64,000 bases of DNA from Spartobacteria bacterium. Its GTDB lineage: Bacteria > Verrucomicrobiota > Verrucomicrobiia > Chthoniobacterales > UBA10450. This document shows, one piece after another, positions 5,560 to 25,431 of this stretch; the stretch's first letter is position 1; each line of letters starts with the position of its first letter. The DNA lies in contig PNAS01000017.1 of assembly GCA_003169695.1 (NCBI GenBank), forward strand, positions 62,001-126,000, in the 5' to 3' direction. A program made the translations under genes and the position numbers. Under the pieces are notes generated by a model that was given only the letters and a program-made list of their open reading frames with translations, made no database searches and was not told where the DNA came from.

Positions 5560-5622
5560 CCTTCCAGATAACACATTGTCCGCTTGCGATCAGCCACCGC
5601 CCTCCGCAAACTGCCGCGCCAT

Positions 5623-6801: not shown

Positions 6802-6826
6802 TAGCTTCGCCAGCGGAGGAATCCGC

Positions 6827-7645
6827 CTAGCTCTCCTTGAGGCGGCTGAATTTTCGGTCCCGTATGCTTCGCGACAGTTTCGAATCCAAATCGCCCTGAA
6901 TCCTCCGGGCCCACGTCTCCGAGGCCTCGCTGTTGTAATGGATTCCATCTCCGCCGGTTTTGCCGGCGACGTAATGCGTCACCTCCCGCGAATCCACCAG
7001 CTGGAAGCCATCGCGTCTTGCCGCCTGCCGAATCAGTCCGTGCACTTTCCCCTGCGTCTTTCTCAAACGCGAGGAATCCGGCGGCGTAATCCAGATGATT
7101 TCCTGAACAGAGCCACGGCGAGCTTCGCTGATAAAGCGGTCAAGATAGTTGCTCATCTGTGCATCCGTGAGCGAGCGATCCATCCAATTCGTTCCGAGCT
7201 GGACGATGAGGATCGTCGGCTTGTGTTTGTTGATCAGCTTCGCCAGCTTCGGCGTTAGCGTGGGTCGCGGCGGCTTCCCATTCACGAAATCACGGAACAC
7301 GTCAGAGTCTATGGTGTGCTGGCGATAACCGCACTTGGTGATGAATTCCGGTTCTCCGCTCAACCAGTGTTCCGGAGACGAACCGCAGGAAGCATAGGCG
7401 GCCACGGGATATTTCTGCGCAAGATGCCCTTGGACCACTTCGCCGAATTTCCCGACGGACAATGAGTCGCCCACCATCAGGATGCTTGGTGGCGGGCCCT
7501 CGGGAGTCTTCGGGGATTTTTGCTTGCCGCTCGCGACGAGGACGAAACTGCCGATGCCCACGAGAACGGCCAGGAGCAACAGCATAGGCTGGAGCACGGT
7601 GGGCCAGGCTTTCTTAATGCGCATGCTCAGGGTGTTTGGTTTCAT
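6827..7645 (-). CDS. Membrane-anchored SGNH/GDSL hydrolase-like protein
   Basis: 272 residues: a short cytoplasmic N-terminus, one hydrophobic anchor or signal at about 17-40, then an SGNH fold outside the membrane. Block I ILMVGDSLSVG carries Ser61, block III is VQLGTNW, and GDGIHYNSE near residue 238 supplies the Asp/His pair. SGNH proteins act as esterases or O-acetyltransferases on surface polysaccharide or peptidoglycan. The gene overlaps the end of the preceding SGNH gene by 32 bp (11 bp if the in-frame ATG at 7624 is used), suggesting coupled translation. It belongs to the O-acetylation cassette between tgt and yajC. The exact substrate is unknown. Confidence 0.75.
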   Translation of the reverse strand: MKPNTLSMRIKKAWPTVLQPMLLLLAVLVGIGSFVLVASGKQKSPKTPEGPPPSILMVGDSLSVGKFGEVVQGHLAQKYPVAAYASCGSSPEHWLSGEPEFITKCGYRQHTIDSDVFRDFVNGKPPRPTLTPKLAKLINKHKPTILIVQLGTNWMDRSLTDAQMSNYLDRFISEARRGSVQEIIWITPPDSSRLRKTQGKVHGLIRQAARRDGFQLVDSREVTHYVAGKTGGDGIHYNSEASETWARRIQGDLDSKLSRSIRDRKFSRLKES

Positions 7646-8909
7646 CCTGGATCCGGATGTAGGGTTGAAGATTGATTAATCCGGAATCATCCTTGGATTT
7701 CACGGTTTTCCAAACGGTGTCTTCCAGTTCATGCAGCTGGAGCTTATAGGTTTTCCCGACGCGATAGCGGAGCTTCTGCTTTTTCAGCCCAATGTAGGCG
7801 GGATGCATCACCAGTATTTGCTTTTCCGAATATTGGCCAGCGACAAGTTTGTTAACTTCGTAGACGTAGCCGACGAGATATTCCTGGTAGGGCAGCAATT
7901 CCTTTACCGGGATGGGCTCGGTCTTGAATATTAATTTCGCTTTTACCTGGAGCGTTTGGTCCCTCTGCTTTTCGGCTGGTGGCGTCGGCTGCTCGTGCGC
8001 GATCGCCAACACGGGCATTTTTTCCGATAACGGCTTGAGCGTCGCGAGCGGCTGCAGAGATAGATCGTGCTCGATGACCTCGAATACTTTGTCGGCCCAC
8101 AGGTCCATGTCCACGCCGAGGAAATGCTCGTGGTCAGGTTCCATGTGGCGATACGGATACGCGACAAGCGTTCGGCTATCAATCACGTTGGCAATGCTGC
8201 CGATGTCGGCCCGCGTTTGTTCGAGCACGAACTCCTGAATCTCCTTCGAAACTCTTCCGGAGGTGGGAGACGCCACCCAATAGATTTTCCGTAACGTCGA
8301 CGGACTTCGGACCGCTTTGGTAATGAAAGGAACCAGATAACTTCTCAGGGCGGGGCCGTGGCGATTCGGGCTCACTGTTCTGTGATCCGGGAACAGATCG
8401 AACAAATTCGTGCCGGTTTGCATGATCAGAATGTCGGGCTGGAGCGCAACCAGCAAGTCCTCGAGCTTTGGAACGGGATGCGGATTAGGCACGTGCCCGC
8501 GTCTCATGCCATACACGTCCTGCAATTCTCGCGCGCGGCCCGAGCCGTTCGACTCGATGCTCATGAATCCGCAATGCGTTTTGATATTGGTGTACGGCCG
8601 CTCCTTGAGCCAGCTCAGCGGATTCGTCCCGCAGGCGAGATAAGTGAACGTGGATTTCACCCGCGGATTTTTCCGGAGCCTTTCGTCCAACCTCTTTCCG
8701 AATCCGCACAGAGCCAGGGAGTCGCCGAGAATCAAGACATTGATGCCTTCGGACGGCGGGGCGGTCTGTTGCGGAGGAATTGGTTGATTCTCAACCGGCT
8801 TTGATTGCGCGAAGACCGAAAGCGATCCGCATCCAAAAACAGCAGCGCCGACGACGATAGAGACAAGCGTTCGACACCTCCTGTAAATCTTTTTCCAAAA
8901 GGTGCTCAT
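7614..8909 (-). CDS. Secreted SGNH-type protein with extra C-terminal domain
   Basis: 431 residues from the ATG at 8909 (MSTFWKKIYRRCRT); a longer open frame upstream lacks a plausible signal and would overlap the next gene. An N-terminal signal or anchor ends near SLSVFAQS. LILGDSLALCGFG gives block I Ser64, and MQTGTNLF is the block III region. EPDHEHFLGVDMDLWADK supplies the probable Asp/His residues. Residues about 310-431 form a separate beta-rich domain with a Leu-Pro-Tyr motif and a VGYVYEV strand, and a similar pattern occurs at the end of the protein encoded at 11809-13548. The context (MBOAT and AlgJ-like genes) points to acyl transfer onto an exported polymer. Confidence 0.65.
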   Translation of the reverse strand: MSTFWKKIYRRCRTLVSIVVGAAVFGCGSLSVFAQSKPVENQPIPPQQTAPPSEGINVLILGDSLALCGFGKRLDERLRKNPRVKSTFTYLACGTNPLSWLKERPYTNIKTHCGFMSIESNGSGRARELQDVYGMRRGHVPNPHPVPKLEDLLVALQPDILIMQTGTNLFDLFPDHRTVSPNRHGPALRSYLVPFITKAVRSPSTLRKIYWVASPTSGRVSKEIQEFVLEQTRADIGSIANVIDSRTLVAYPYRHMEPDHEHFLGVDMDLWADKVFEVIEHDLSLQPLATLKPLSEKMPVLAIAHEQPTPPAEKQRDQTLQVKAKLIFKTEPIPVKELLPYQEYLVGYVYEVNKLVAGQYSEKQILVMHPAYIGLKKQKLRYRVGKTYKLQLHELEDTVWKTVKSKDDSGLINLQPYIRIQDETKHPEHAH

Positions 8910-9028
8910 CAATGTTTCGCGACGCTCAACCACGGCAATCGCTTTCAAATAAATCGTGCCTGGCGTCAAGAGCGTTCCATCATGAGCGCAATAGATTTCC
9001 GGCGCGATCGTCGCTATTTGCGGACGCG

Positions 9029-10087
9029 CTACTTTGCGATGGGAGCTCGCGCCCAGCCTTCCGACGCTTCCGTGAATTCTCGCGCAGTTAAACACCAGAC
9101 AACAACTTTCTTTTTCGCGAGATACCCGGGATCTTTGAGACTATGCCGGTAGAGGCTAATGCGGACGGGCGTCGCTCCCGATCCACGTGTGCCGATTAAA
9201 TCGGGGGCGAAGCCGAGTTCCTGTGCGAGCTGATCGACCAGTCCCGCGCGCTCCGTGAGGAAGTCATGGAAGACGAGCGTATGACTGTCGCCGAGAAGAA
9301 GCAGCGGGCTGTTCGCATCCGGCTGGACCGCGGTGCTTGTCCCCTTTTCACTCACGCTGCGAACAGCAATTTTTTCCGCACCGGGCTTTGGGGAGTCCGG
9401 AGGAAGAAGGCTGACCAGGTCGCCACTGATCTGGAATTCTTTCCATTCCGAAACGTAATCCTTTCGTGGCGATGGAGCTGTCAGTTTCCCGCGGACGTTT
9501 TCCGCGATCGCTCGCGCCGCCAGCGCGCATCCGAGACCCGACCAATGGCTATCGGTCTTGCAAAAAACTCCGCCCCGCTTGTCATCGCGATTTTCGATAA
9601 AGAGCGGCCCGAGATCCAAGACGTCGATTCCCGCCGCGCGGAGCTCCTCGTAAAAGCGATGCAGAAGTGGAGCTGCGTCGTCGCTCCGAACATTGAACCC
9701 GGGGAGAATTTTTTCCGGATAAATCGCGGCCTTTGGCGGCACCGGCACCACCAGCAAATCGATCCCCCGCGCCCTTAATTGTTTCTCAAAATCGACGATG
9801 GCCGGAATCGGATCAGCCAATTCCGGTTTATGCGAGCGACTCACTTTCGGCGCTTCGTTGCCCCAAAAGCGACCGAGCGAGAGAAGGCGAAATTCGGCCG
9901 TGAAGAACAACCAACCGTCGGCTTCCTCACAGGCCGCGGAATTTTGCTTTTCCGAAATCTGCACCATGCTCGCGAGCTCGCGGCGAAGCTTCAGCTGCGC
10001 TTCTGAAAACGGAACTTGAACAGGCGTTTCCGCCGCACGGAAGGCCGGGATCGCGCAAAAGAGAATCAGGAGACGGAAAAATTTCAT
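9029..10087 (-). CDS. AlgJ/AlgX-like periplasmic O-acetyltransferase domain protein
   Basis: 352 residues with a clear signal peptide (MKFFRLLILFCAIPAFRA, cleaved before AE). An in-frame ATG at 10120 would add 11 residues. The fold signature of the AlgX/AlgJ acetyltransferase family is present: TDSHW at 178-182 and the nucleophile motif LLLLGDSHT around 264-271. KQLRARGIDLLVVPVPPKAA is typical of the same family. These proteins take acetyl groups passed through an AlgI-like MBOAT protein and attach them to an exopolysaccharide in the periplasm. The gene is divergent from the MBOAT gene at 10324, with a family-B repeat between them. Confidence 0.75.
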   Translation of the reverse strand: MKFFRLLILFCAIPAFRAAETPVQVPFSEAQLKLRRELASMVQISEKQNSAACEEADGWLFFTAEFRLLSLGRFWGNEAPKVSRSHKPELADPIPAIVDFEKQLRARGIDLLVVPVPPKAAIYPEKILPGFNVRSDDAAPLLHRFYEELRAAGIDVLDLGPLFIENRDDKRGGVFCKTDSHWSGLGCALAARAIAENVRGKLTAPSPRKDYVSEWKEFQISGDLVSLLPPDSPKPGAEKIAVRSVSEKGTSTAVQPDANSPLLLLGDSHTLVFHDFLTERAGLVDQLAQELGFAPDLIGTRGSGATPVRISLYRHSLKDPGYLAKKKVVVWCLTAREFTEASEGWARAPIAK

Positions 10088-10228
10088 TAGGAGTTGAAAG
10101 GCGGTAGCGATAATACGCATTCTTTCAACTGCACCGTGCTGTTTTTATTCGCAAGCTGCCGCGGGGGCATCGTATCAGAAGACTGTGACTGGGAAGCCAA
10201 GAGAGAGCGCTTGCTCGAAGTTTAGGCT

Positions 10229-10316
10229 GGTGGATAGAGCGCTCCGTCACTCGATGTTTTATTGTCGCGGCTCAGCCGCCGTTTTTGGCATCGCGCAGCG
10301 GAGCGCACGATCCACC
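10229..10316. repeat. Family B inverted-repeat element, copy 1 (88 bp)
   Basis: Ends GGTGGAT...ATCCACC. The outer 28 bp on each side match as inverted repeats at about 22 of 28 positions. The centre holds a smaller hairpin (GCGGC/GCCGC, 10267-10279). The same ends, spacing and central hairpin recur at 52112-52198. No coding capacity. It occupies the divergent promoter region between the AlgJ-like and MBOAT genes. Confidence 0.8.
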
Positions 10317-10323
10317 TACTCGC

Positions 10324-11799
10324 GTGGTTTTTAGTTCTCACATTTTTGTCTACTACTTCCTGCCGCTCGCGCTGCTGGGCTACTACGCGCTCGTCCGCGC
10401 GCCCCAGCGGTGGCGAAACGGCTGGCTCATTCTGACCGGCTACATCTTCTACGGTTGGGCCGAGCCGCGTTTCATGCCGCTCATGTTCGCGACCACATTC
10501 ATCGACTGGCTCATGAGTTTGGTCATCGCGCACGACACCTGGCAATTCTGGCGCGTTCTGCACAAGCCGGTGAAACAATTGCCGCGCCGCGCGCCGCGCA
10601 CCCGCACACAACGCCACGCGATTTGGGTATCGGTCGTCCTGAATCTCGCGACGCTCGGATTCTTCAAGTACTTCAACTTCGGCATTGAGAGCTGGAATTC
10701 CCTCGCCGCGGGGCTTGGACTTCACCACGCGCACTTCGACACTTTCTTCCGCGTGGTGCTGCCACTCGGCATCAGCTTTTACACCTTTCAGGCGCTCAGC
10801 TACACGATCGACGTTTATCGCGGCGAGGCCGAGGCGATGTCGAACTTCATCGATTTCTCCTGTTTCGTCTCGATGTTCCCGCACCTCGTCGCCGGGCCGA
10901 TTCTGAAATTTTCTTTTCTCGCCGATCAACTCAAACATCGCGTCCTCACCTCGGACAAATTCGGGCGAGGCGTCGCTTTCTTCATGCTCGGCCTCGCAAA
11001 AAAAATCCTGCTCGCGAACCCTTGCGGAAAAATCGCGGACACTGCCTTCAACGCAGGCTCCATTGGCACGCTCGACGCGTGGTTCGGCTCAGTCGGATAC
11101 GCGTTCCAAATTTATTTCGACTTCAGCGGTTACTCGGACATGGCGATCGGGCTCGGTCTCATGTTCGGCTTTGTCTTCGCGAAGAATTTTGATTCACCCT
11201 ACCGGTCGGAATCGATCACCGATTTCTGGCGGCGCTGGCACATCTCGCTTTCGACCTGGCTGCGCGAATACCTCTACGTCCCGCTCGGTGGCAACCGGCG
11301 CGGAATCAGCCGCACTTACCTCAATTTGGTGATCACCATGTTGCTCGGCGGGCTCTGGCACGGGGCATCGCTGAATTTTATCGTCTGGGGTGGATTGCAT
11401 GGAGGCATGCTTGCCTTCGAGCGCAGCCAGGGTCGCGAAGGTTTCTATCATAATCTTCCCAAACCGCTGCGCATCGCGATCACCTTTGTCATCGTTCTCC
11501 TCGGCTGGGTATTTTTCCGCGCCGCCGATTTGCCCCGAGCCGTCGCTTATCTCGCCAGCATGTTCGGCCTCGGCCACGCCGAACCCAGCGCGGCGTTGCT
11601 CAGTGGAATTCTTTACAAGCCCTATTACCTGCTTTCGCTCGGCGTCGCGGCGCTGGTGGTCTGGGCCGGGAAGCAGACCTGGGATTGGACCCAACGCATG
11701 ACACTTCCGAAGACCGCGGTTTGTTTCGCGCTCGGCTGGCTCGCGTTGGTTGTCCTGGCCGCGCAGGAGTACAACCCGTTCATCTATTTCATTTTCTAG
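10324..11799 (+). CDS. MBOAT-family O-acyltransferase (AlgI-like)
   Basis: 491-residue polytopic membrane protein, with about 10 hydrophobic segments, that passes acyl groups across the inner membrane for O-acetylation of an exported polysaccharide. The GTG at 10324 gives the typical AlgI start MVFSSHIFVYYFLPLALLGYY. A TTG at 10285 is in frame but its codons lie inside the family-B repeat. Conserved blocks are LPLGISFYTFQALSYTIDVY, FPHLVAGPILK, YFDFSGYSDMAIGLGLMFG, FWRRWHISLSTWLREYLY and the catalytic-His segment GGLWHGASLNFIVWGGLHG. It is followed after 9 bp by an AlgJ-like partner. Confidence 0.9.
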   Translation: MVFSSHIFVYYFLPLALLGYYALVRAPQRWRNGWLILTGYIFYGWAEPRFMPLMFATTFIDWLMSLVIAHDTWQFWRVLHKPVKQLPRRAPRTRTQRHAIWVSVVLNLATLGFFKYFNFGIESWNSLAAGLGLHHAHFDTFFRVVLPLGISFYTFQALSYTIDVYRGEAEAMSNFIDFSCFVSMFPHLVAGPILKFSFLADQLKHRVLTSDKFGRGVAFFMLGLAKKILLANPCGKIADTAFNAGSIGTLDAWFGSVGYAFQIYFDFSGYSDMAIGLGLMFGFVFAKNFDSPYRSESITDFWRRWHISLSTWLREYLYVPLGGNRRGISRTYLNLVITMLLGGLWHGASLNFIVWGGLHGGMLAFERSQGREGFYHNLPKPLRIAITFVIVLLGWVFFRAADLPRAVAYLASMFGLGHAEPSAALLSGILYKPYYLLSLGVAALVVWAGKQTWDWTQRMTLPKTAVCFALGWLALVVLAAQEYNPFIYFIF

Positions 11800-11808
11800 G
11801 AATCTAAC

Positions 11809-13548
11809 GTGGCCGAAGAAATTCCAGATCCAATTGTCGGAGGCGAAGAGTCGAGAAAGCCGACGCATTCGCTTCCGCGCTACAGCGAGCCTACGCCCGA
11901 GACGCACCGGAAGTTGTCGCGGGAAGCCGAGGCGGAACTCGCACTCAAGCACACTGTTTTCACATCTGGCGCGAAGCCACTGCTCATCGCGCTCTTTCTC
12001 TTCACCATTATTGCAGTTCCCGCGATTCAGTTGACGGCTGAGCTTCGTGTGACGCGGCCTTCTGGCGGGCTCGCCACCTTCGACGTTTACAAGGTACTGC
12101 CGACGTGGACAAAGATCCGGAAGGTTCGGAATGTGGCGGGGCTTTGGCATCTCCTTCCGCGCGCCGCGGATCTCAAGTCCGCGGAGAAATCTATCGAAAC
12201 CGAGTCGGTCGTTTCCGCGTGGCTGCTGCCACGCGTTCAGGCCGTGCTCACCGGAGAACTCGGTGCCGGCAACGAACAAGTCTATCTCGGACGCGGCGGG
12301 TGGCTCTTTTATCGTCCCGACGTCGAGTACATCACCGGTCCGCCATTTCTCGATGTGGCCCAAATGAGGCGCCGCGACCGGGTGCAACCCGATCCGGTAA
12401 AGGCCATCGTCGATTTTCGAGATCAGCTCGCGGTCCGCGGGATTGAATTGATCACGGTGCCGCTGCCGGTGAAGCCGGGCATCGACGCAAATAAACTTTC
12501 GGCCCGCGCGGAAGGGCGCGCGCCTTTCCACAATAAGTCATTCGCTGAGTTCAAAGCGCGTCTCGAAAAAGCGGGCGTGCGCGTTTTCGACCCAGTTCCC
12601 TCGCTGATACAGGGCGAAACCGGCGCTCCACGTTATTTACAAACCGACACGCACTGGCGGCCGGAAACGATGGAGCTCGTCGCAGAAAATCTTGCCGCAG
12701 TCATTCCGCCATCTAGCTCGACACCACGCGCGCCGCTTCAAGTCGCGCAAAAAGAGATCAACGGTTCTCTCGGCGACCTCGCGAGAATGTTAAAGCTGCC
12801 TCCGTCGCAAAATTTTTATCGTCCGGAGAAAGTCACTATTCACGAAGTGTTGTCTGGTAACGCGCTGTGGCATCCGACGAAAGACGCTGACATCCTGCTC
12901 CTCGGTGACAGCTTCTCGAACATCTTCTCGCTCGAAACTGCGGGCTGGGGTGAGTCAGCTGGGTTTGCCGAACATCTCAGTCGCGCCTTGGGCGGGCGGC
13001 CACTCGACTGCATCCTGCGCAACGGCGAGGGCGCTAATGCAACTCGAGAAATCCTGAGCCGCGACCTGGCGCGAGGCCGCGACCGGCTCGCAGGAAAAAA
13101 GCTGGTCGTATGGGAATTCGTCGAACGCGAGCTGGCGATCGGCGATTGGAAATTGCTCGAAATGAAGCTGGGAGAACCACCGCCGGCTCGATTCTTTGTG
13201 CCGAAAACGAACGAAGAGGTCGTGGTCAGTGGAACGGTTGAAGCCATCTCCACGGTGCCGCGCGCGGGAACACTTCCCTACAAGGACCACATCCTCGCCC
13301 TGCATCTGACCGATCTCACGGTCGATAGCGGTCATGAGCAGGAGCGTTTGGAATCGCTCGTCTATCTTTGGAGCATGCGGGACAATGTTTTGACGCCCGC
13401 TGCGCACTTGCGCCAGGGCGACCATGTCATCTTGCGGCTGCGCGCATGGACCGATGTGTCGGATCGCTACGAAAAGATAAATCGCAGTGAAGTTGAAGAT
13501 CCCACCGTTCAACTGCAGGAACCCTGCTGGGGAGAAATTTTGAAATGA
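11809..13548 (+). CDS. AlgJ/AlgX-like acetyltransferase partner, membrane anchored
   Basis: 579 residues from GTG 11809, 9 bp after the MBOAT stop. About 55 cytoplasmic residues precede one transmembrane segment (PLLIALFLFTIIAVPAIQL), so the catalytic part is extracytoplasmic. GWLFYRPDVEYITGP is typical of the family start, TDTHW lies at 279-283, and the nucleophile motif LLLGDSFSNIF lies around 363-373. Beyond residue about 460 a C-terminal domain (VSGTVEAISTVPRAGTLPY) resembles the C-terminal domain of the SGNH protein at 7614-8909. Together with the MBOAT protein it probably forms an O-acetylation machine for an unknown exopolymer. Confidence 0.75.
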   Translation: MAEEIPDPIVGGEESRKPTHSLPRYSEPTPETHRKLSREAEAELALKHTVFTSGAKPLLIALFLFTIIAVPAIQLTAELRVTRPSGGLATFDVYKVLPTWTKIRKVRNVAGLWHLLPRAADLKSAEKSIETESVVSAWLLPRVQAVLTGELGAGNEQVYLGRGGWLFYRPDVEYITGPPFLDVAQMRRRDRVQPDPVKAIVDFRDQLAVRGIELITVPLPVKPGIDANKLSARAEGRAPFHNKSFAEFKARLEKAGVRVFDPVPSLIQGETGAPRYLQTDTHWRPETMELVAENLAAVIPPSSSTPRAPLQVAQKEINGSLGDLARMLKLPPSQNFYRPEKVTIHEVLSGNALWHPTKDADILLLGDSFSNIFSLETAGWGESAGFAEHLSRALGGRPLDCILRNGEGANATREILSRDLARGRDRLAGKKLVVWEFVERELAIGDWKLLEMKLGEPPPARFFVPKTNEEVVVSGTVEAISTVPRAGTLPYKDHILALHLTDLTVDSGHEQERLESLVYLWSMRDNVLTPAAHLRQGDHVILRLRAWTDVSDRYEKINRSEVEDPTVQLQEPCWGEILK

Positions 13549-16651: not shown

Positions 16652-16849
16652 ATGCCAGAAGTTATCGTTCGCAAAGGTGAGCCGGTCGACCGGGCGTTAA
16701 AGCGACTGAAGAACAAGCTGGACGCCGAAGGGATCCTTGAAGAGGTCCGTCGCTTGCGGGCGTTTGAAACACCGAACCAAAAGAGCCGGCGCAAAGCCAA
16801 AGCGAACGCGAAGCGGGGACGAACGAAGTTCCGTTTTAATCCATCGTAA
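16652..16849 (+). CDS. rpsU: 30S ribosomal protein S21
   Basis: 65-residue basic protein of the small subunit that helps initiation by sitting near the anti-Shine-Dalgarno end of 16S rRNA. MPEVIVRKGEPVDRALKRLK is the S21 N-terminus, and the Lys/Arg-rich tail is normal. A good ribosome-binding site (GAGGAGA) lies 8 bp before the ATG, unlike many genes here. It is monocistronic with its own predicted promoter. Confidence 0.95.
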   Translation: MPEVIVRKGEPVDRALKRLKNKLDAEGILEEVRRLRAFETPNQKSRRKAKANAKRGRTKFRFNPS

Positions 16850-16962: not shown

Positions 16963-18588
16963 TCAGTCGCATTCACACACGATTCGGAATCCGAGATCGT
17001 TGCAAAAATAGTTCGGCACATTGGAGTTGCGAGCGGTCGCTCGCAGGCTATTGAAGCGCGACTTCCAACTGCCACCTCGATAAACACGCTTGGCTCCATT
17101 TGTCGGTCCACGCGGATTTACTTTCGGGGCGCCGCGATACGGTTCCAGATAATCCAGGCACCACTCCCAGACATTTCCTGCCATATCTTCGATGCCGAAC
17201 GGGCTCGCTCCGAAGGGAAAAGCGCCCACGGGTGAACTCTCCGGGTAGCCGTCATCGATCTCCCGATCGCTCCAGGCGAAAACCGTGTTTCGATCTGCGA
17301 AATTTGCGAGATCCCCGCGCCCATCATGATTTCCCCATGGATATTTCCGGCCATCGGCGCCGCGGGCCGCATACTCCCATTCCGCTTCAGTTGGCAGACG
17401 GTATCTCTTCCGCTCACGCGTCGAAAGTGATTGGCAGAATTTGATCGCTTCCAGACTGCTGACGTAGACCACTGGATGACGGTCACCGGCTCCCGGGGCG
17501 CGCTTCCGCGCGTGACTCGGGTCAAACTGCTCATACTCAGCGTTCGTGATAAGGAATCGCGACATGTAAAACCTGCTCAATGTCACCTTGGTGAGCGGCC
17601 GCTCGTTCGGCAGGGAATCGATTGCCTCGCTGCCCATGAGAAATTCACCGGAGGGGACGAATAGCATCTGGGAATCAACTGAATTGACATAATTCGCGAG
17701 TCGGGTGCGGTCTGTCTCAGGAACCGGAGGCGCCGGTGAGGTCGTGGACGCGCTGGTCTCGGTCGCCGGCTTAGCCGCCGGCTCGACCACAGTAACACGA
17801 GGCGGCAGTAGTGTGTCTGGATCCGACATCTTATCGGCTTCATCGAGGTAGAGATCGACTAGTTCCTCCGCTTCATCGACCTCTATGCCAAGATTTTCCG
17901 CCATGTTAACGAACGCATCTCGCGTTTCGTCCGCCATTCCGTCGCTATCGAGGCCGCTGAGCCGAAGCATTCGGAGAAAATCCTCCTTCGGATCCAAAGC
18001 CTTTTGCCTGCGCGCTCTCGCTTCCCTATTGGCTTCGGTCGAAATTGGAGGAGTTGGCAACGGTGCCGCATTTGCTGCGACCCGCTCCGCGCCGCTGTCT
18101 TTCAACTCCGCCTCGACATAGGCCACAATCTGCTCCTCCGTCAGGCCGTGTTCGGTCCCAAATCGATGAAGGCTTTTCTCTTCCTCCGCAGTCAAGACTC
18201 CATTGGCGAGTGCAAAAGTCAGATATTTGTGGAATTCGATGACCGCTTGTTCGTTCGCTTGCGCAGCCAGCTCGGAATCCACTTGCCGGCGGCGAGCCGG
18301 ATCGAGCAGCTCGACGCGGGCCTCGGTCAAGTAGCGCGACGACTCGTCGAGTCCAGGTCGCAACAATTGCGCAAGCGGATTGCTCGGCTGATTCTTTAAC
18401 GGCAGTTTTTTCTGCCACCACCGCATCAATTCACGGCAATGCTCCTCGATGATTTCGTTGCTCGGATTCGCGCGCGGATCAAGACAGAGCCGCTCGTAGA
18501 AATTCGGCGACTTGTATTTGCTCCAGCCGTCCCACTTCTGCGGATCGTCCGGAAGCGGCATGGGGAAGTGGCCCTCGCATTGCATCAT
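16963..18588 (-). CDS. J-like region fused to a formylglycine-generating-enzyme-like (SUMF1) domain
   Basis: 541 residues. Residues about 25-110 (NFYERLCLDPRANPSNEII ... LTEARVELLDPARRRQVD) resemble a DnaJ J-domain in helix pattern and in the ending DPARRRQVD, but the HPD motif needed to stimulate Hsp70 is absent (WWQKKLP at that place). Helical segments follow, with GVLTAEEEKSLHRFG and GLTEEQIVAYVE. After a Pro/Thr/Ser linker (about 255-290), residues 300-541 form an FGE-like domain (VPSGEFLMGS, YRLPTEAEWEYAARG, YPWGN, DMAGNVWEWCLD, VYRGGSW, DLGFRIV). The copper-binding cysteine pair of true FGE after GGSW is missing, so sulfatase activation is unlikely. Starts 1 bp after the Hsp70 stop and is the last gene of a seven-gene minus-strand run. 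Confidence 0.7.
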   Translation of the reverse strand: MMQCEGHFPMPLPDDPQKWDGWSKYKSPNFYERLCLDPRANPSNEIIEEHCRELMRWWQKKLPLKNQPSNPLAQLLRPGLDESSRYLTEARVELLDPARRRQVDSELAAQANEQAVIEFHKYLTFALANGVLTAEEEKSLHRFGTEHGLTEEQIVAYVEAELKDSGAERVAANAAPLPTPPISTEANREARARRQKALDPKEDFLRMLRLSGLDSDGMADETRDAFVNMAENLGIEVDEAEELVDLYLDEADKMSDPDTLLPPRVTVVEPAAKPATETSASTTSPAPPVPETDRTRLANYVNSVDSQMLFVPSGEFLMGSEAIDSLPNERPLTKVTLSRFYMSRFLITNAEYEQFDPSHARKRAPGAGDRHPVVYVSSLEAIKFCQSLSTRERKRYRLPTEAEWEYAARGADGRKYPWGNHDGRGDLANFADRNTVFAWSDREIDDGYPESSPVGAFPFGASPFGIEDMAGNVWEWCLDYLEPYRGAPKVNPRGPTNGAKRVYRGGSWKSRFNSLRATARNSNVPNYFCNDLGFRIVCECD

Positions 18589-18589
18589 C

Positions 18590-20152
18590 TCACGCGACCA
18601 CGATGGCGCCCAGTCCCGCCGTGGCGCGCTCGACTTCGTCCGGCGCGAGGCCGGTGTTGCGTTCGATCGTCACCTTCGCCTGGTTGCCGCAAGCATTCAC
18701 CGACACCTCGAGAACCTGATTGCCATTATACTCGTAGGTCAGCTCCACGGGCGAACCCTTGGGCAAAAATGCCGGCAGCTCGACATCGCAGAGACCGAGC
18801 GGTGTGCATTCCGCAGGCAATGTGCTCTCGCCTTCCACGATCCGCACGACGACGCGCGGCATATTCGCGCTGGCCGTGCCGAACGAGTTCTTAGCCGTCG
18901 CCGGCATGGGCGTCATTTTTCGAATCATGGGGAAAACGTATTCCTCGAGGTGTCCTTCATCCCAAAGCACCACGCCGAGCGTGTGTGACGTAATGTTGGT
19001 CACCTGGATTAGACCGCCCTCGCGCGAGGAAAACTGTTGCCGCGTGTTTTCCGACAGCGTCTTCACGCCGGAGACTTCTTCTTCGCGCAGTAAAGACAAG
19101 ATCGCCTGAATAGCTGCGCCCACCGCGACTGCTTCGTCGGGATTCACATCATCCACCACCGGAACGGATGAAAGCTGCGAAATCATTTCGCGGACCATTG
19201 GCATCCGCGTCATCCCACCTACGAGAAGGACCTTGTCTATATCGCTCCAGTTCATTTTCGCTTCCTGCAAAACCATTTCGCAAATCGTTTTGCACTTCTC
19301 CACGAGATGCCGGGTCTTGAGTTCGAATTCTTCCCGAGTCAGCTCGATCTTTACGCTTTTTCCATTGTGATTGTGCACGATCGCGGTGCGCGGCCGGCTC
19401 GAGAGCTGAATCTTTGCCGCCAGCGCACGGCTTTGCAGATCCTGATAACTTTGCAGATCGAGCAGCGGATTCTCGCCGTGGGCTCGATCGAATTCCTCCG
19501 CGACATGATTGACGATCACATCGTCCCAATCCTTGCCGCCCAGACGATGGTCGCCATTCGTCGCGAGCATCTCGATCCCCTGCCCCTGGATTCGCATAAT
19601 CGTGACGTCGAACGTTCCGCCGCCGAGGTCGAAAACGAAAACAGTCTGATCCTCATTGAGTTTATCGAGGCCATACGCTACGGCCGCAGCGGTCGGCTCA
19701 TTGATAATTTGCAGAACGTTAAGCCCCGCGAGTTGACCCGCGGTGATCGTGGCCGTGCGCTCGGCGTCGTTGAAATAGGCTGGAACGGTGATCACAGCAT
19801 CCGTGACCGGCTCTTTCAGATATTTCTCTGCGTCAGCTTTTAGCTTTCGCAGAATCAGCGCCGATAACTCCTCGGCCGAATAGATCTTCCCGTTGAATTC
19901 GCGATGAAATTGCTCCTTCGGCTTGCCCATTTCACGTTTCACGAAATCAACAATCCGTTCCGCTTCGGCCACGGAATTGTTCTTCGCGAGTGTGCCGACG
20001 ATCACGCTGGCACCATCGAAGAGAATGACAGACGGCGTGATACGTTCGCTCTCCGAGTTTGGGATAATCTGCGGCTTGCCGTACATGTCGATGTGCGAGA
20101 CAGCGCAAAACGTGGTGCCAAGATCAATTCCGATTGCTTTTCTTCCTGTCAT
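18590..20152 (-). CDS. Short Hsp70 (DnaK-like) chaperone lacking the helical lid
   Basis: 520 residues from ATG 20152 (MTGRKAIGIDLGTTFCAVS); an upstream in-frame ATG is not conserved. The nucleotide-binding domain is intact: IGIDLGTTFCAVS, AVITVPAYFNDAERTAT, INEPTAAAVAYGL, VFDLGGGTFDVTI and VLLVGGMTRMPMV. The substrate-binding beta domain follows (about 385-510: SHTLGVVLWDEG, MPATAKNSF), but the chain ends there, without the about 100-residue alpha-helical lid of DnaK (638 residues in E. coli). The linker LREEEVSGVKTL differs from the usual VLLLDV-type linker. It sits 115 bp after the GrpE-like gene and 1 bp before the J/FGE-like gene. Probably a specialised, not the housekeeping, Hsp70. Confidence 0.85.
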   Translation of the reverse strand: MTGRKAIGIDLGTTFCAVSHIDMYGKPQIIPNSESERITPSVILFDGASVIVGTLAKNNSVAEAERIVDFVKREMGKPKEQFHREFNGKIYSAEELSALILRKLKADAEKYLKEPVTDAVITVPAYFNDAERTATITAGQLAGLNVLQIINEPTAAAVAYGLDKLNEDQTVFVFDLGGGTFDVTIMRIQGQGIEMLATNGDHRLGGKDWDDVIVNHVAEEFDRAHGENPLLDLQSYQDLQSRALAAKIQLSSRPRTAIVHNHNGKSVKIELTREEFELKTRHLVEKCKTICEMVLQEAKMNWSDIDKVLLVGGMTRMPMVREMISQLSSVPVVDDVNPDEAVAVGAAIQAILSLLREEEVSGVKTLSENTRQQFSSREGGLIQVTNITSHTLGVVLWDEGHLEEYVFPMIRKMTPMPATAKNSFGTASANMPRVVVRIVEGESTLPAECTPLGLCDVELPAFLPKGSPVELTYEYNGNQVLEVSVNACGNQAKVTIERNTGLAPDEVERATAGLGAIVVA

Positions 20153-20180
20153 GTTTATGGGGTAAGTGAGAGATGATTCC

Positions 20181-20197
20181 GCACCTTGTACAGGTGC
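20181..20197. promoter_or_regulatory. Palindrome GCACCTTGTACAGGTGC before the Hsp70 gene
   Basis: Six-bp perfect arms (GCACCT/AGGTGC) with a 5-nt centre, about 30 bp upstream of the Hsp70 start in the only sizeable gap of this gene run. It is not a CIRCE element. It could be an operator or an mRNA hairpin; function is unknown. Confidence 0.35.
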
Positions 20198-20267
20198 AAT
20201 TTCCATGCCTGCGCCGGCCACCAATTAGGGCGGCTTTCCGAGGCGAATAAGATGAGCGTTTCGCCGC

Positions 20268-20972
20268 CTACCCAAAGCGTTTCGCGACCACTTCTTCGGG
20301 CCGCAAAATTTGATCCCGCCACAGGAAACCGCGTTTTACGCGCATTACGATTCGCCCTTCGTCTTCCGCAAAATCCGAGGGCTCGTAACTCACCACGCGA
20401 TGAAACGCACGGTCCACCATCTCCTTTGGCTCGATTTCGCTGACCTCCATCCGGTGCAGGATCTCGGTCAGAGAATGGATTGCGTTCTCGAGATTATCGC
20501 GCCATTGCACAAGCTTTCCGCGCTTGGTTTCGCCCGCTTCCACCGCAGTTTGGAGCTGCGAGGAAAGGGCGCTCAAGTCATCGAACAAGATCAGCAGGTC
20601 GCGAATGAACGGTTTCTGCAGCGATTCATACAGGAAATTGTCTCGATATTTTATCAACTCTTGATGCAACGAATCGAAGAGTCGTTGGTTAACGCTCTCT
20701 GTGTTGCGGAGCGCAATCATATGTTCGTCCATTTTCCGAAATTGCTCGGCGAAATCCGTTTGCTCCGCGTCCCCGGTTGTTCCGAGCCGGCTGGCTACCT
20801 TCTCTTCGAGACTTTGCAAGCGTCCGTTCAGGCCGCCGAATTCCCGCAGAATCTGGCCGAACTGCTCGCTGTTGTTGCCGTCCTTCCATGCATTCTCCGG
20901 AAGCGCTTTCTCAGCCTCGGCGCTCAACTGCTGCATGGCCGATGTAAATTCGTCAGTGATCTTGATTTCCAT
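20268..20972 (-). CDS. GrpE-like nucleotide exchange factor
   Basis: 234 residues. A long helical N-terminal part (coiled coil about 40-130) leads to DSLHQELIKYRDNFLYESLQKPFIRDLLILFDDL, then the small beta head near the C-terminus with VDRAFHRVVSYEP, VMRVKRGFLWRDQILRPEEVVAKRFG, which matches the GrpE head (GY.. LRPA.V.V). It would release ADP from the neighbouring Hsp70. The start codon overlaps the stop of the SUMT-HemD gene by one base (TGATG), implying coupled translation with tetrapyrrole genes. More divergent than housekeeping GrpE. Confidence 0.75.
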   Translation of the reverse strand: MEIKITDEFTSAMQQLSAEAEKALPENAWKDGNNSEQFGQILREFGGLNGRLQSLEEKVASRLGTTGDAEQTDFAEQFRKMDEHMIALRNTESVNQRLFDSLHQELIKYRDNFLYESLQKPFIRDLLILFDDLSALSSQLQTAVEAGETKRGKLVQWRDNLENAIHSLTEILHRMEVSEIEPKEMVDRAFHRVVSYEPSDFAEDEGRIVMRVKRGFLWRDQILRPEEVVAKRFG

Positions 20973-22513
20973 CAGCGTCTTTCGTCGTCAATTTTGCCAA
21001 GAAAAAATTTGCAGACAGCGTCGACCAAGCCAGGGATGTCATGTCGTCGCGCTTCGACAGCGACGGTCAACCCGCGATCACGCGCAGTCTTTGAAGTCAC
21101 CGGCCCGATGCTGGCGACCTGCATTTTCTCCGGCCACGAGAGGCCAAGCGCGAGGAAGTTTTCGACCGTCGATGAGCTGGTAAAAGTGATCAGATCCGCG
21201 CCCTCCTCCAATAACCGTCGGCGCGCTCCACTATCGTCGCGCGTTTCGGGGACCGTGCGGTAGGCGAAACCTTCGTCCACAATAGCTCCCAAAGCCGAGA
21301 GCTCCTTAGGTAGCAAATCCCGCGCCTTTTCCGCCCGCGCCAGAAGAATGCGCAAATTTTCCACGCCCCCCTGTTTGCGGAACTCACGCACGATCGATTC
21401 CGCGACGAATTCCTCCGGTTGCAGATCGACCTTCAGATGAAAATCCTTGATCCGCTGCGCGGTCGCTGGACCGATCGCGGCAATGCGCGCGCCGCCGAGC
21501 TCACGCGTGTCGTCGTAGAGTTTGTAGAACAGATCGAAAAAAGCCGTCACCCCATTCGGACTGGTGAACACAATCCAGTCATAAGCGTGAGCATCCTGCA
21601 CGAGTTCCGCGAACGCGCGTAGGTCACTCGGCGGTTCGATCCGGATTGTGGGCAACTCGATCACATCGGCGCCGAGAGCGCGTAATTGTTCGCTTAAGAC
21701 GCCCGCTTGCGCCCGGCTGCGGGTGACCACGATCCGCTTGCCCGAAAGCGACTGATGTTCAAACCAATTCAACTCGTCGCGCATTGTGACGACGTCCCCG
21801 AAAACGGCGACTGCGGGTGCGGCGAACTCTTTCTCCGCGACGCGCTCCGCGATGTTTCCTAAATTGCCTACCAGCGTCTCCTGCCGACCCGTCGTTGCCC
21901 AACGAATGAGAGCGACCGGCATATCACTCCGCATTCCATTCGCCAGCATTTCGCGCGCGATCGATTCAATTCGTTCGACGCCCATCAACATCACCTGGGT
22001 GCCCCCGAGTTGCGCGAGCGCCCGGAAGTCGATTGAGGTTTCCGATTTCTCTGGATTCTCGTGCCCGGTGAAAAAAGTGACGTGTGAATTCTTTCCGCGA
22101 TGTGTGACCGGAATTCCGGCGTAGGCCGGCCCGGCAATCGCCGATGTAATTCCGGGAACGACGACGAACGGCACGTGCGCCGCCGCGAGCATTTGCGCTT
22201 CTTCGGCGCCGCGCCCGAACACAAATGGATCCCCGCCCTTTAACCGAACAACTTGTTTCCCCGCACGCGCCTTCTCGATCAAAAGCGCGTTGATTTCATC
22301 CTGCGTCAGCGTGTGCGCACCCGCCCTTTTTCCGGCATAGATGATCTCGGCGGTTTCCGGCGCCCATTTCAACATCTCCGGATTGGAAAGGTAATCGTAA
22401 ACAATCACGCCGGCCTGCTCGATGCATTCCTTCGCGCGCAACGTGACCAGACCGAGATCGCCCGGCCCAGCGCCAACCAGGAAACATTTCCCAGTTTTAG
22501 TTTTCGCGGCCAT
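20972..22513 (-). CDS. cobA-hemD: Fused uroporphyrinogen-III C-methyltransferase / uroporphyrinogen-III synthase
   Basis: 513 residues. Residues about 8-250 are SUMT, which adds two methyl groups to uroporphyrinogen III to make precorrin-2 for sirohaem and corrinoids: VGAGPGDLGLVTLRA, VVRLKGGDPFVFGRGAEE, YAGIPVTHR, MGVERIESIA. Residues about 258-505 are HemD, which closes hydroxymethylbilane into uroporphyrinogen III: KRIVVTRSRAQAGVLSEQL, WIVFTSPNGVTAFFD, IAAIGPATAQRIKDF, TFTSSSTVENFLAL, ASIGPVTSKTARDRGL. The start overlaps the hemC stop by 17 bp and the stop overlaps the grpE-like start. The enzyme sits at the branch point between haem and sirohaem. Confidence 0.93.
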   Translation of the reverse strand: MAAKTKTGKCFLVGAGPGDLGLVTLRAKECIEQAGVIVYDYLSNPEMLKWAPETAEIIYAGKRAGAHTLTQDEINALLIEKARAGKQVVRLKGGDPFVFGRGAEEAQMLAAAHVPFVVVPGITSAIAGPAYAGIPVTHRGKNSHVTFFTGHENPEKSETSIDFRALAQLGGTQVMLMGVERIESIAREMLANGMRSDMPVALIRWATTGRQETLVGNLGNIAERVAEKEFAAPAVAVFGDVVTMRDELNWFEHQSLSGKRIVVTRSRAQAGVLSEQLRALGADVIELPTIRIEPPSDLRAFAELVQDAHAYDWIVFTSPNGVTAFFDLFYKLYDDTRELGGARIAAIGPATAQRIKDFHLKVDLQPEEFVAESIVREFRKQGGVENLRILLARAEKARDLLPKELSALGAIVDEGFAYRTVPETRDDSGARRRLLEEGADLITFTSSSTVENFLALGLSWPEKMQVASIGPVTSKTARDRGLTVAVEARRHDIPGLVDAVCKFFLGKIDDERR

Positions 22514-23453
22514 ACATCCGACAATACAAGGCTTCCGCGACCTTTTCTGGTTCTTGCGTGCACAATGACAATCGCACCTTTCCGGTCTTCGGTGTTGCGT
22601 TCCCCTCCTCGAAAACCTGCGCGCGAAGGGTCATTTCGTTGTTTTCGATTGTAGCCAGAACGCCAACTGGCGATTGACAGTCACCTTGCAAGCGTCGCAA
22701 AAACTCGCGTTCTGCCCGCAAACATAAAAGTGTATCGGCGTCGTTCACAGCATCCACGATCGCCTCCGTTTTTTCGTCACCGCTTCGCAGCTGCATCGCG
22801 ATCACACCCTGCCCGCCAGCTGGAACAAATTCATCGCGCGACAAGATTTCAACATGAAGCAACGCACCTTCAAAATCGAAATAACCAGTGGACAAATTGT
22901 AGCCCAATCGCTCGATGCCCGCACGTGCGAGCACGATTGAGTCCCACTCGTTCGTCATCAGTTTGCGCAAACGCGTCGGCACATTTCCGCGAAGATCGAG
23001 GACTTCGATGTCGGGACGTTTGCATCGGAGCTGATGCTGCCGTCGCACACTGCCGGTCGCAATAATCGCCTTCTGGCGAAGAGAGGCCAAAGCGCCCGCA
23101 GTTTTGCGGATCAAAACGTCATCGACTGGCGCCCGCGGTAATGCGCGCAATTCCAATCCCAGCATTGCGTCACTCGGCAAATCTTTCGCGCTGTGGACGG
23201 CAATGTCGATCCCACCTGCCGCCAGAACGCGCTCGACTTCACCAGTGAAAAGCCCTTTGCGGCCCGCGCGCGGATCGATGGGCTCGATGGCCTCCGGGCT
23301 CCGCTCATCTCCACGAGTCTTGATAATCTCGAGCTTGATCTCGAGCGCCGGCCACGCGTGCTGCAACGCTGTCGCCACCATGGCCGTTTGCGCGCGGGCG
23401 AGTTCGCTGCCGCGCGACCCCAGAATGATCTTCCGCGAAGGGTCGGCGCTCAT
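22497..23453 (-). CDS. hemC: Hydroxymethylbilane synthase (porphobilinogen deaminase)
   Basis: 318 residues. Joins four porphobilinogens into hydroxymethylbilane in the cytoplasm. IILGSRGSELARAQT at the start, HSAKDLPSD, GSVRRQHQLRCKRPDIEV and LRGNVPTRLRKL are family motifs. RRLQGDCQSPVGVLAT carries the cysteine that holds the dipyrromethane cofactor. It lies 9 bp after hemA and overlaps the SUMT-HemD gene. Confidence 0.96.
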   Translation of the reverse strand: MSADPSRKIILGSRGSELARAQTAMVATALQHAWPALEIKLEIIKTRGDERSPEAIEPIDPRAGRKGLFTGEVERVLAAGGIDIAVHSAKDLPSDAMLGLELRALPRAPVDDVLIRKTAGALASLRQKAIIATGSVRRQHQLRCKRPDIEVLDLRGNVPTRLRKLMTNEWDSIVLARAGIERLGYNLSTGYFDFEGALLHVEILSRDEFVPAGGQGVIAMQLRSGDEKTEAIVDAVNDADTLLCLRAEREFLRRLQGDCQSPVGVLATIENNEMTLRAQVFEEGNATPKTGKVRLSLCTQEPEKVAEALYCRMYGREN

Positions 23454-23462
23454 AGCGCGTCG

Positions 23463-24527
23463 CTACAGTTCGGAAGTGCGTAGCGCGGCTTCATCCAAAA
23501 CGCGCGGACCTACCGGCAACGGTTCGTTGCTTGCGCGTCCGAACCACGCGCGAAAATCCGAAACGTGTTCCGCGATGATCCCCTCGCCCGCCGCGATTTG
23601 CTGGCGCCGGAGCGCGAGTGATTGCTCAGCGATCGATTGCAGCGAATCGATATCGTAAAGATAAACGCCTTCCATTTCATTCACTTCGGGCGCGACGTCG
23701 CGCGGCACCGCGATATCGATGATGAAAAGCGGTTGGTCCGAACGCTCTCGAATGAGCGGCGACAAAATATCTGGCGTTAGCAGCGGCTCATCGGCTGACG
23801 TCGACGAAATCACGATGTCGATCTCTCGGCACTGAAGCGCCCACTCGTGGAAGGAGACCGCGCGGCCACGGACGAGCGCCGCTAGAGTTTCCGCACGCTC
23901 GAACGATCGGTTGCTCACTCGAATGTCGGTGACACCACGCGAACTCAACGCTCGCGCGGTGCGCTCGCTCGTGTCGCCCGCGCCGAGGATGAGCACTTTT
24001 CGATCGCGCAGATCGCCGAATATCTTCACCGCCAGATCGACCGCGACCGATCCAATGGAGACGGCTCCGCGCGTAATCTCCGTTCGACTTCGCACCTGCT
24101 TCGCCACTCGAAAGGCGCGTTGGAAAAGGCGATGCAAGAGAGGCCCGACGCTACGCGATTCTCGTGCATTCGCGTAGGCTTTTTTTACCTGGCCGAGGAT
24201 GTCCGTTTCGCCGATCACCATGGAATCCAGCCCCGCAGCCACGCGAAAAAGATGCCGCACACATTCCTCTCCTTCGTAGCGGTAGAATGCGCTGGCGTCC
24301 TCGAGTGTTCCCGCGACCCCGCGCGCGAGCCAACGAGCGATTTGTTCCGTGGCAACGGGGACGACGGCAGAACCGTATACTTCCACGCGATTGCAAGTCG
24401 CCAGCATGAGCGCCTCCGTACAGCCGCTCTCCGCTCGGAGGTCGTGCTCCGATTGCTGCGCGGCGTAGCGCTCGCGCGTCTCCACCTTCGCGGTGTGATG
24501 GCTGATTCCAACGCAGAACAGGTTCAT
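23463..24527 (-). CDS. hemA: Glutamyl-tRNA reductase
   Basis: 354 residues from ATG 24527 (MNLFCVGISHHTAKVETRER). The same frame is open for another 302 codons upstream, but that part overlaps the HemX-like gene and is not HemA-like. Reduces Glu-tRNA to glutamate-1-semialdehyde, the first committed step of C5 tetrapyrrole synthesis. ATCNRVEVYG carries the catalytic cysteine, and GLDSMVIGETDILGQVKKAY and the Rossmann motif VLILGAGDTSERTARAL are visible. The start overlaps the previous stop (TAATG), so translation is probably coupled. Confidence 0.96.
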   Translation of the reverse strand: MNLFCVGISHHTAKVETRERYAAQQSEHDLRAESGCTEALMLATCNRVEVYGSAVVPVATEQIARWLARGVAGTLEDASAFYRYEGEECVRHLFRVAAGLDSMVIGETDILGQVKKAYANARESRSVGPLLHRLFQRAFRVAKQVRSRTEITRGAVSIGSVAVDLAVKIFGDLRDRKVLILGAGDTSERTARALSSRGVTDIRVSNRSFERAETLAALVRGRAVSFHEWALQCREIDIVISSTSADEPLLTPDILSPLIRERSDQPLFIIDIAVPRDVAPEVNEMEGVYLYDIDSLQSIAEQSLALRRQQIAAGEGIIAEHVSDFRAWFGRASNEPLPVGPRVLDEAALRTSEL

Positions 24528-25318
24528 TACATCGGGTGGTTCTGCGAGACGAAATTGATGGCCCACAAGACTGAGATCGCCGCGCTGAACGCCAGCACGC
24601 AAAGCGCGGCCACACGTTTCGGAGCAAACCAACGAAGGTGCCGGCCCTGCAGAATCGCGCCATAAAAAAGCCATACGCCAAAAGCACAAATCATCTTCAC
24701 CCGCGGCAAGGGTCCGCCGGTAAAAAATCCGCTGACGAGGCCGGCGGTATAAAGGGCAAAACCAAGCCAGAGCAGGCGCGTGAGCGCGGCGAACAGGTTG
24801 GTCAGTGGCGGAAGATGGTAAAAGATCGAATGCAATTGATGCGTCTTGAGCTGGCGTTCCTGCACGAGGTACATCAGGCCGGCCACGCACGAGAGAGCGA
24901 AGGCGCCATAAGCAATCATCGAAATCGAAGCGTGAAATTCCAACCAGGGATTCGCGGAGAGTCGGACCCGGTGCGGAACATCGATCGGCGCGAGAAGGGC
25001 GAACGTTTGCAGAACGAAAACCAACGGCGCGGTGAACGCGCCCATGAGCGAAAGCCGATAGGTGGGTCCGACCATCAGGTAGATAAGCGCGACCGACCAG
25101 GCGAGAAAGACGAATACTTCGAATAAATTTGTCAGCGGGCATCGGCCAAGCGAATGACCGCGCACCGAGAGAAATGCCGTCTGGAAAAGAAAACCGGCGC
25201 CGATCGCGAAAAAATTGAATCTCCCATGAAGCGCGATCCGAGCGCGCACCGCGAACACGGTGCGCGCGACCGCCGTGAGATAGCAAAGCGTCGAGGCAAT
25301 CAAAAGTGGACGGTCCAT
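24527..25318 (-). CDS. Cytochrome c assembly/HemX-like membrane protein (CcsA family)
   Basis: 263-residue protein with about eight hydrophobic segments from ATG 25318 (MDRPLLIASTLCYL). The conserved stretch WLEFHASISMIAYGAFALS, then YLVQERQLKTHQL, is typical of the CcsA/CcmC/HemX family, whose histidines bind haem in the membrane. HemX homologues often precede hemA and influence glutamyl-tRNA reductase levels, while CcsA members ligate haem to cytochromes. The canonical WWD tryptophan-rich motif is not evident, which favours the HemX-like assignment. First gene of the tetrapyrrole run, divergent from apt. Confidence 0.75.
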   Translation of the reverse strand: MDRPLLIASTLCYLTAVARTVFAVRARIALHGRFNFFAIGAGFLFQTAFLSVRGHSLGRCPLTNLFEVFVFLAWSVALIYLMVGPTYRLSLMGAFTAPLVFVLQTFALLAPIDVPHRVRLSANPWLEFHASISMIAYGAFALSCVAGLMYLVQERQLKTHQLHSIFYHLPPLTNLFAALTRLLWLGFALYTAGLVSGFFTGGPLPRVKMICAFGVWLFYGAILQGRHLRWFAPKRVAALCVLAFSAAISVLWAINFVSQNHPM

Positions 25319-25431
25319 CGCGAGTGCCCAGTGTAAAGACAGGGGCTCCCCTTGGCAAACCTGCGATAACTTCGATCTCGCGGCGCGGGCGCTGACGTTG
25401 ACCTTTGCGGGCAAGACAGTAGCGTCGCGCC

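Follow-up and report, generated by a model that had tools for sequence, protein, structure and literature searches.

In the DnaK-DnaJ pair, D35 of the partner's His-Pro-Asp (HPD) motif bonds to R167 and Q378 of the Hsp70, H33 to L391 and P34 to P419, according to the relevant section of PMC8215388. R167 also pairs with Asp393 of the linker, and D35 is in competition with this pair, according to the relevant section of PMC7289447. In these sections of both papers the HPD motif and the Hsp70 arginine that contacts it are treated as central to J-protein action. Here we describe a locus of a Spartobacteria bacterium (assembly GCA_003169695.1, contig PNAS01000017.1, positions 62,001 to 126,000; this whole stretch of 64,000 nucleotides is called the window) in which both sides of this contact seem to have changed. 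It consists of three genes, for a GrpE-like protein, for an Hsp70 without the alpha-helical lid, and for a protein that joins a predicted J-like fold lacking HPD to an FGE fold, called the J/FGE protein below.

With DnaK-DnaJ-GrpE the module shares the nucleotide-binding domain (NBD) and the beta part of the substrate-binding domain (SBD-beta) of the Hsp70, with the ATPase residues intact, the J fold and the GrpE-like exchange factor; it differs in the absence of the lid, in a longer and rewritten linker, in the changes R167 to Q and D393 to N, and in a partner that lacks HPD and carries an FGE fold. Like the module, whose complex is putative, yeast RAC (Ssz1-Zuo1) combines a lidless Hsp70 and an unusual linker with a J partner that has an N-terminal proline-containing segment. 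In contrast to the module, RAC has neither a GrpE-like protein nor an FGE fold; its Ssz1 does not hydrolyse ATP, which the module Hsp70 would do, and no evidence points to a shared ancestry. The Hsp70 on which Zuo1 acts at the ribosome is Ssb, and Zuo1 has HPD; in RAC the J partner retains the motif for this second Hsp70, whereas the J/FGE protein lacks it. Ssz1 has no lid and a detached linker, and the N-terminal LP-motif of Zuo1 fills the Ssz1 groove as a pseudo-substrate, as stated in part of PMC7083937. HscA-HscB and HscC-DjlB/DjlC are likewise specialised Hsp70s with their own J partners alongside DnaK, in which the exchange factor is no longer needed (same section of PMC8215388); their partners are J-domain proteins, whereas the module has a GrpE-like gene and no HPD. 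Plant CPP1-type proteins also have a J-like fold without HPD; they have no FGE fold, and the part of PMC9407819 that we cite describes no co-evolved lidless Hsp70 for CPP1. The FGE/PvdO/EgtB family shares the PF03781 domain, with PvdO as the best structural match, and differs in that the J/FGE protein is fused to a J-like fold and lacks the copper cysteines. Among the matches listed in the open-access PMC literature there was no description of such a module.

An apparently rewritten contact between Hsp70 and partner

Our strongest result is that the canonical J-Hsp70 switch has changed in matching fashion on its two sides; from the alignments the partners seem to have rewritten the same contact. 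The Hsp70 side was read from 62 module Hsp70s, namely those of 60 loci, of the window and of the distant locus L214; 14 of the 74 loci described below were left out, having no Hsp70 or one of 850 bits or less, taken as partial or split. They were set against 29 comparison Hsp70s, not a random sample, made up of the best matches in a phylum sample and two proteins of the window's own genome; four lidless 558-residue proteins were set apart, leaving 25 that bear a lid (23 from the phylum sample plus the two of the own genome). The position of R167 is occupied in the module by Q (58), S (2), N (1) or K (1) and that of D393 by N (52) or D (10), while R and D are found there in 25/25 of the lid-bearing proteins. 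L391 is replaced by V or I in 62/62 and E206 by R or K in 60/62. Two of the HPD contacts are retained, Q378 in 61/62 and P419 (Pro417 in the window protein) in 62/62. A change at DnaK D481 was dropped as evidence because Asn is also found in the 25 comparison Hsp70s, and so was the loss of the acidic D208-D211 loop, which is the same in the comparison Hsp70s.

On the partner's side the HPD motif is absent from the J/FGE protein in all 74 loci. Its position is taken by the loop WWQKKLPLKNQPSNP, in which 14 of the 15 positions are invariant in 22 orthologues and the remaining one nearly so, and the motif WWQKKLPLK is retained in L071-L074, loci that were found by a whole-profile search. (The orthologue alignments A1-A4, from which partial sequences and a number of near-identical ones were left out, had 22, 20, 26 and 21 rows.) None of the 22 orthologues has a Pfam DnaJ match, and Pfam and PDB sequence searches of the J-like region gave nothing useful; profile comparison of the cut segment, with 76 sequences, gave the J fold a probability of 55. 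Together with the structural model this leads us to predict a J-domain fold in the N-terminal part of the protein. Further upstream W19, G21 and W22 are invariant in 22 orthologues, and the triplet of the proline-rich segment FPMPLPDDPQKWDGW reads LPD in 60, IPD in 8, FPD in 4 and LSD in 2 of the 74 loci, and LAD in L214.

The Hsp70 of the window matches Pfam HSP70 at 5e-125, covering only positions 1-510 of the 599 in the profile. Exactly 19 residues follow the position of E. coli residue 507 in 62/62 orthologues, against 110-149 in the 25 comparison Hsp70s, so the lid (SBD-alpha) is missing across the whole set. Of these proteins 58 are 520-522 residues long, one has 532, and three are shorter, two at contig edges and one with a shorter frame. 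In a tree the 62 group together, apart from the two other Hsp70s of the window genome, at 100/100. The ATPase residues K70, E171, D194, T199 and D201 (E. coli numbering) are kept in 62/62, and the linker motif VLLLD aligns with IQVTN in the window protein. The best of five AlphaFold models (mean predicted local distance difference test, pLDDT, 77.5; predicted template modelling score 0.77) has an NBD, an extra linker helix at residues 368-373 and an SBD-beta, and ends in one short helix at residues 504-514. It superposes on DnaK in the docked, ATP-like state (7krt, 3.4 A over 481 residues; 5nro, 3.4 A over 484); with the undocked 2v7y there is no whole-length fit (24 A over 450). By profile and predicted model the protein is an Hsp70 (PF00012), with an actin-like NBD that carries the ATPase residues and with an SBD-beta. 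By alignment it is not of DnaK type: the lid is absent, and Arg167 and the VLLLD linker are changed, Asp393 alone being kept in 10/62.

These observations could be read in another way, in which the J-like fold is a spacer uncoupled from the Hsp70, and the Hsp70 uses the ordinary J-domain proteins of the genome or acts alone as a low-affinity holder. The absence of HPD and the change of the residues that read it fit such a role, as do the six J-domain matches above the Pfam cut-off in the window genome and the weak binding, with fast on and off rates, of lidless DnaK (PMC7083937, in part). A canonical DnaJ as driver would predict that R167 and D393 are kept, however, and few parts of the J/FGE protein are as well conserved as the J-like loop, a degree of conservation that a mere spacer would not require. 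We therefore consider a spacer unlikely.

The C-terminal FGE fold has lost the catalytic cysteine pair. The counterpart of the Cys loop of human FGE is shortened and free of cysteine, and the FGE catalytic cysteines are found in 0/22 orthologues. The structural matches of the fold include PvdO, EgtB and SenA, by sequence FGEs rank first, and Cys385, Cys477, Cys538 and Cys540 are invariant in the aligned orthologues. These features might point to an active enzyme of new chemistry, comparable to PvdO or EgtB, which the Hsp70 set matures or loads as HscA-HscB does for iron-sulphur proteins. The missing copper cysteine pair speaks against this, and Pfam names no second catalytic domain in the protein. 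Cys385 and the Cys of WEWC, which we take to be recurrent in FGE-type folds, need not be catalytic, and similarity of fold is no demonstration of activity. We regard an active enzyme as very unlikely.

The 520-residue Hsp70 without a helical lid, the FGE-like domain and the J-like region without HPD in the 541-residue protein had all been named in a preliminary description of this DNA and stand up to the present analysis; the last is invisible to plain Pfam and came out with profiles and the model.

Gene order, distribution and operon context

The 234-residue product of the first gene is a GrpE by profile (Pfam GrpE 4.1e-13 over residues 69-229, 49.8 bits against a gathering cut-off of 25.8), and its family profile matches the GrpE of 1dkg at 2.6e-5; nucleotide exchange on the partner Hsp70 is its putative function.

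A profile of the J/FGE N-terminus matches 74/213 genomes of the order Chthoniobacterales (44/112 of the high-quality ones), 13/236 in a sample of the class (12 of the same order, with G042 sharing only the class) and 4/288 in a sample of the phylum, all four of the same order. When a genome collection was scanned with WWQKKLP and LKNQPSNP as seeds, 74 loci came out, among them that of Chthoniobacter flavus Ellin428; most carry the label Spartobacteria, Chthoniobacterales, Chthoniobacter or Verrucomicrobia. Gene order was counted where 600 bases or more lay upstream (70/74 loci) and linkage where 5 kb or more did (57/74). The Hsp70 gene directly precedes the J/FGE gene in 67/70; the remaining three (L119, L121 and L133) are solitary second copies of J/FGE, in genomes that, judged by their record titles, also carry the main locus. 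The full triad is found in 48/57 loci, 42 with the cobA-hemD fusion upstream and six without. Five more have Hsp70, J/FGE and cobA-hemD and no GrpE-like gene, forming one clade on a long branch of the tree; one has Hsp70 and J/FGE alone, the GrpE-like gene of its genome still lying beside cobA-hemD and the pair elsewhere; three are solitary J/FGE genes. As the preliminary description proposed, the three genes belong together and co-occur elsewhere. In three pairwise comparisons for each gene, the ratio of nonsynonymous to synonymous substitution rates was 0.03-0.10, so the module is due neither to chance nor to decay. By gene order and substitution rates the three genes are a conserved, selected unit in soil bacteria from the order Chthoniobacterales.

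Second J/FGE matches are also present in G004, G005, G006 and G009, and solitary copies may share the main Hsp70. Beside the copy in L121 lies what is presumably a class A beta-lactamase-like gene (9947-10858, minus strand). In the draft record of Chthoniobacter flavus Ellin428 (L131, ~6328-9425) the Hsp70 and J/FGE reading frames are both split, by sequencing error or decay.

A stress or anti-phage module that sits in the operon by chance is hardly credible to us. Very weak PADLOC matches (~5e-4) link residues 109-169 to PDC-S48 and the Hsp70 to PDC-M61B; against this, related genomes mostly share one fixed site, purifying selection is strong, and Pfam named no defence family among ten proteins near relocated modules, which is a weak test.

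All three genes lie on the minus strand at the downstream end of an operon with ccsA/hemX-like, hemA, hemC and cobA-hemD genes (Table 1). The first three names are our own assignments from the sequence; cobA-hemD is named after the preliminary description, with no family search behind the name. The coordinates and sizes of the three genes given earlier were right, as was the overlap of the cobA-hemD stop with the GrpE-like start by one base (TGATG, 20974-20970), which suggests possible translational coupling. The module had been described as embedded in the tetrapyrrole operon; it does belong to this operon, as its downstream end rather than as an insertion. The window genome also codes for a full DnaK-size Hsp70 (C42), another Hsp70 (C10), an Hsp70 fragment that matches weakly (C76) and a second, strong GrpE match besides its J-domain proteins, so the three-gene module is additional to the ordinary set.

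Table 1. Positions of the features described; all refer to the window, except the last row
Feature	Position	Strand	Remarks
GrpE-like gene	20268-20972	-	234 aa; no Pfam match in the N-terminal part, C-terminal part of GrpE type
Lidless Hsp70 gene	18590-20152	-	520 aa from ATG (544 if TTG start)
Gln148 codon in place of DnaK Arg167 (HPD-binding residue)	19709-19711	-	Alignment
Interdomain linker	18995-19105	-	Exceeds that of E. coli DnaK by ~22 residues; ends at Asn386 (DnaK D393)
J/FGE gene	16963-18588	-	541 aa; begins 1 nt past Hsp70 stop
Proline-rich segment FPMPLPDDPQKWDGW (residues 8-22)	18523-18567	-	N-terminal; candidate LP-type pseudo-substrate
J-like fold without HPD (residues 27-111)	18256-18510	-	Profiles and predicted model
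WWQKKLPLKNQPSNP loop at HPD position	18376-18420	-	Profile alignment puts HPD over LPL; ungapped reading, over QKK
Helical middle region (residues 112-255)	17824-18255	-	Two conserved blocks; helices in model
FGE-fold domain (residues 307-537)	16978-17670	-	Pfam FGE-sulfatase (PF03781) 2.8e-50; catalytic cysteine pair missing
cobA-hemD fusion	20972-22513	-	Upstream operon neighbour; context, outside the machine
hemC	22497-23453	-	Operon context
hemA	23463-24530	-	Operon context
ccsA/hemX-like (cytochrome-c-assembly/HemX-like) gene	24527-25414	-	Operon context
G055 cluster (L220, G055:C1:1914000-1932000)	3408-11612		GrpE-like, 586-aa Hsp70, lidless 558-aa Hsp70, 927-aa protein, probable P-loop protein

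This position invites the explanation of a chaperone dedicated to the tetrapyrrole pathway, co-expressed from the operon and folding or protecting HemA, CobA-HemD or a haem or sirohaem enzyme. The cobA-hemD gene is upstream in 47/57 loci (the 42 full triads and the five without GrpE-like gene), the overlap suggests coupled translation, and plant CPP1 stabilises protochlorophyllide oxidoreductase (PMC9407819, in part). Several observations argue against it. G011 and G023 belong to the family of the window genome; in both, ccsX-hemA-hemC-cobA/hemD runs directly into a convergent secDF-yajC, which is the layout of the window minus the three genes, and the J/FGE profile search found no match in either genome; 13 further genomes of their genus, several of them incomplete, are listed without a J/FGE match. 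Of 13 genomes of the order that were tested, 10 have no J/FGE match, and all 10 retain a full-length cobA-hemD. The Hsp70-J/FGE pair lacks cobA-hemD upstream in 7/57 loci, and in 6/7 of these the neighbours are unrelated: a Ser/Thr kinase, an oxidoreductase, an exonuclease/endonuclease/phosphatase-family gene (twice), a branched-chain amino-acid ABC transporter gene, and what we take to be RNase III and aspartokinase genes. Linkage to cobA-hemD requires 5-6 changes on the tree. Its label is not more clustered there than shuffled labels (135/500 shuffles as low, with only seven unlinked rows), as expected for repeated separate changes. The linkage looks like an inherited position, and since the tetrapyrrole link is not needed, the client is probably elsewhere and probably not a tetrapyrrole enzyme. 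A dedicated haem or sirohaem client, as put forward in the preliminary description, is not upheld by these genomes and loci, and we consider a tetrapyrrole-pathway chaperone improbable.

Other features of the window are a small, putative ribosomal protein S21-like gene between secDF and the J/FGE gene (~16652-16840, plus strand), seen by eye, and genes at 9029-13548, also seen by eye, which we take to be MBOAT/AlgI-like and AlgJ/X-like and possibly involved in polysaccharide O-acetylation.

A possible second instance comes from another family. G055 and three other members of its genus each encode a 558-residue Hsp70 with just 19 residues after the position of E. coli residue 507, and R167 is replaced by E in 4/4. 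In the G055 cluster the GrpE-like protein matches Pfam at 2.3e-10; the 927-residue protein starts without HPD, scores 25.3 against J domains over residues 2-29 (at most 13.8 in 60 shuffles) and has a weak zinc-ribbon match. We take this as a lead to a second lidless Hsp70 with an HPD-less partner, from one cluster and one protein examined. An accessory Hsp70 set of another kind is seen in L209 (G025:C247, ~6316-9341), in a genome without a J/FGE match, where a gene with a J-domain match over the Pfam cut-off, a GrpE-like gene and a gene for a 608-residue Hsp70 stand in a row. The class also has a group of proteins, mostly of 640-700 residues (e.g. G083:C16:169577-170608), whose match to the Hsp70 profile is confined to its NBD part (1-351).

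A proposed mode of action

With no lid on the Hsp70 and no HPD on the partner, the module is probably run in a different way from DnaK. The unusual Hsp70 machine suspected in the preliminary description is borne out by the missing lid, the missing HPD and the changed switch residues, and we propose a dedicated, HPD-independent machine with its own cofactors, in which the canonical HPD switch has been dropped; judged from sequence, we give this a probability of about 0.5.

In the proposed mode of action the Hsp70 would hydrolyse ATP and would form a lasting complex with the J/FGE protein. The linker/SBD-beta site may still be where the J-like fold docks, by way of its invariant LPL loop and of Pro417 of the Hsp70; docking would then take place without the Asp-Arg contact, and the coupling would therefore be re-wired or mainly structural. 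By analogy with the LP-motif of Zuo1 on Ssz1, the PLPDDP segment might act as a built-in pseudo-substrate by lying in the SBD-beta groove left open by the missing lid, a suggestion we make with considerable reserve. With equal reserve we suggest that the FGE fold, catalytically dead, may be a binding platform by which the client is brought in. The nucleotide would be reset by the GrpE-like protein or, in the clade from which this was lost, by a canonical GrpE. More speculatively than for the machine as a whole, if with less reserve than for the groove or the platform, we suggest that the otherwise invariant HPD-Arg-Asp switch was exchanged in one set, LPL standing in for HPD, Gln for Arg167 and Asn for Asp393, with the lid dropped and the proline segment taking the groove, perhaps a second time in another Verrucomicrobiota lineage, that of the G055 type.

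Several points weigh against an HPD-independent machine of this kind. The linker Asp is retained in 10/62 Hsp70s, and because Q378 and P419 are kept a weak canonical mode is possible. The sequence signal of the J fold is weak, its probability falling to just 5 when the whole 252-column N-terminal region is used, and since the scan was seeded with WWQKKLP, ascertainment accounts for part of the conservation of this motif in the 74 loci. The LP-like triplets are short and variable, LAD in L214 being an example, and their conservation could have other causes. The five Hsp70 models varied (pLDDT 77.5, then 68.3 to 47.3), and the J/FGE model is poor in its FGE half (pLDDT of 27-46 by block for residues 411-530). 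The J-like piece of G055 is unlike the J/FGE N-terminus, scoring 11.2 where shuffles reached up to 17.1. The analogy with RAC is no more than partial, since Ssz1 does not hydrolyse ATP and Zuo1 has HPD. In the order, 139/213 genomes have no match to the J/FGE N-terminus. In the clade without a linked GrpE-like gene a genome-wide search did not find it in 5/5 genomes, the weak matches being taken as canonical GrpE, so the gene is not obligatory.

If the HPD motif and the arginine of its partner were indeed exchanged together and afterwards kept under strong selection, the module would be a natural test of how much of the switch is needed. The lineage could show whether an Hsp70 cycles without a lid and without HPD, and what replaces them.

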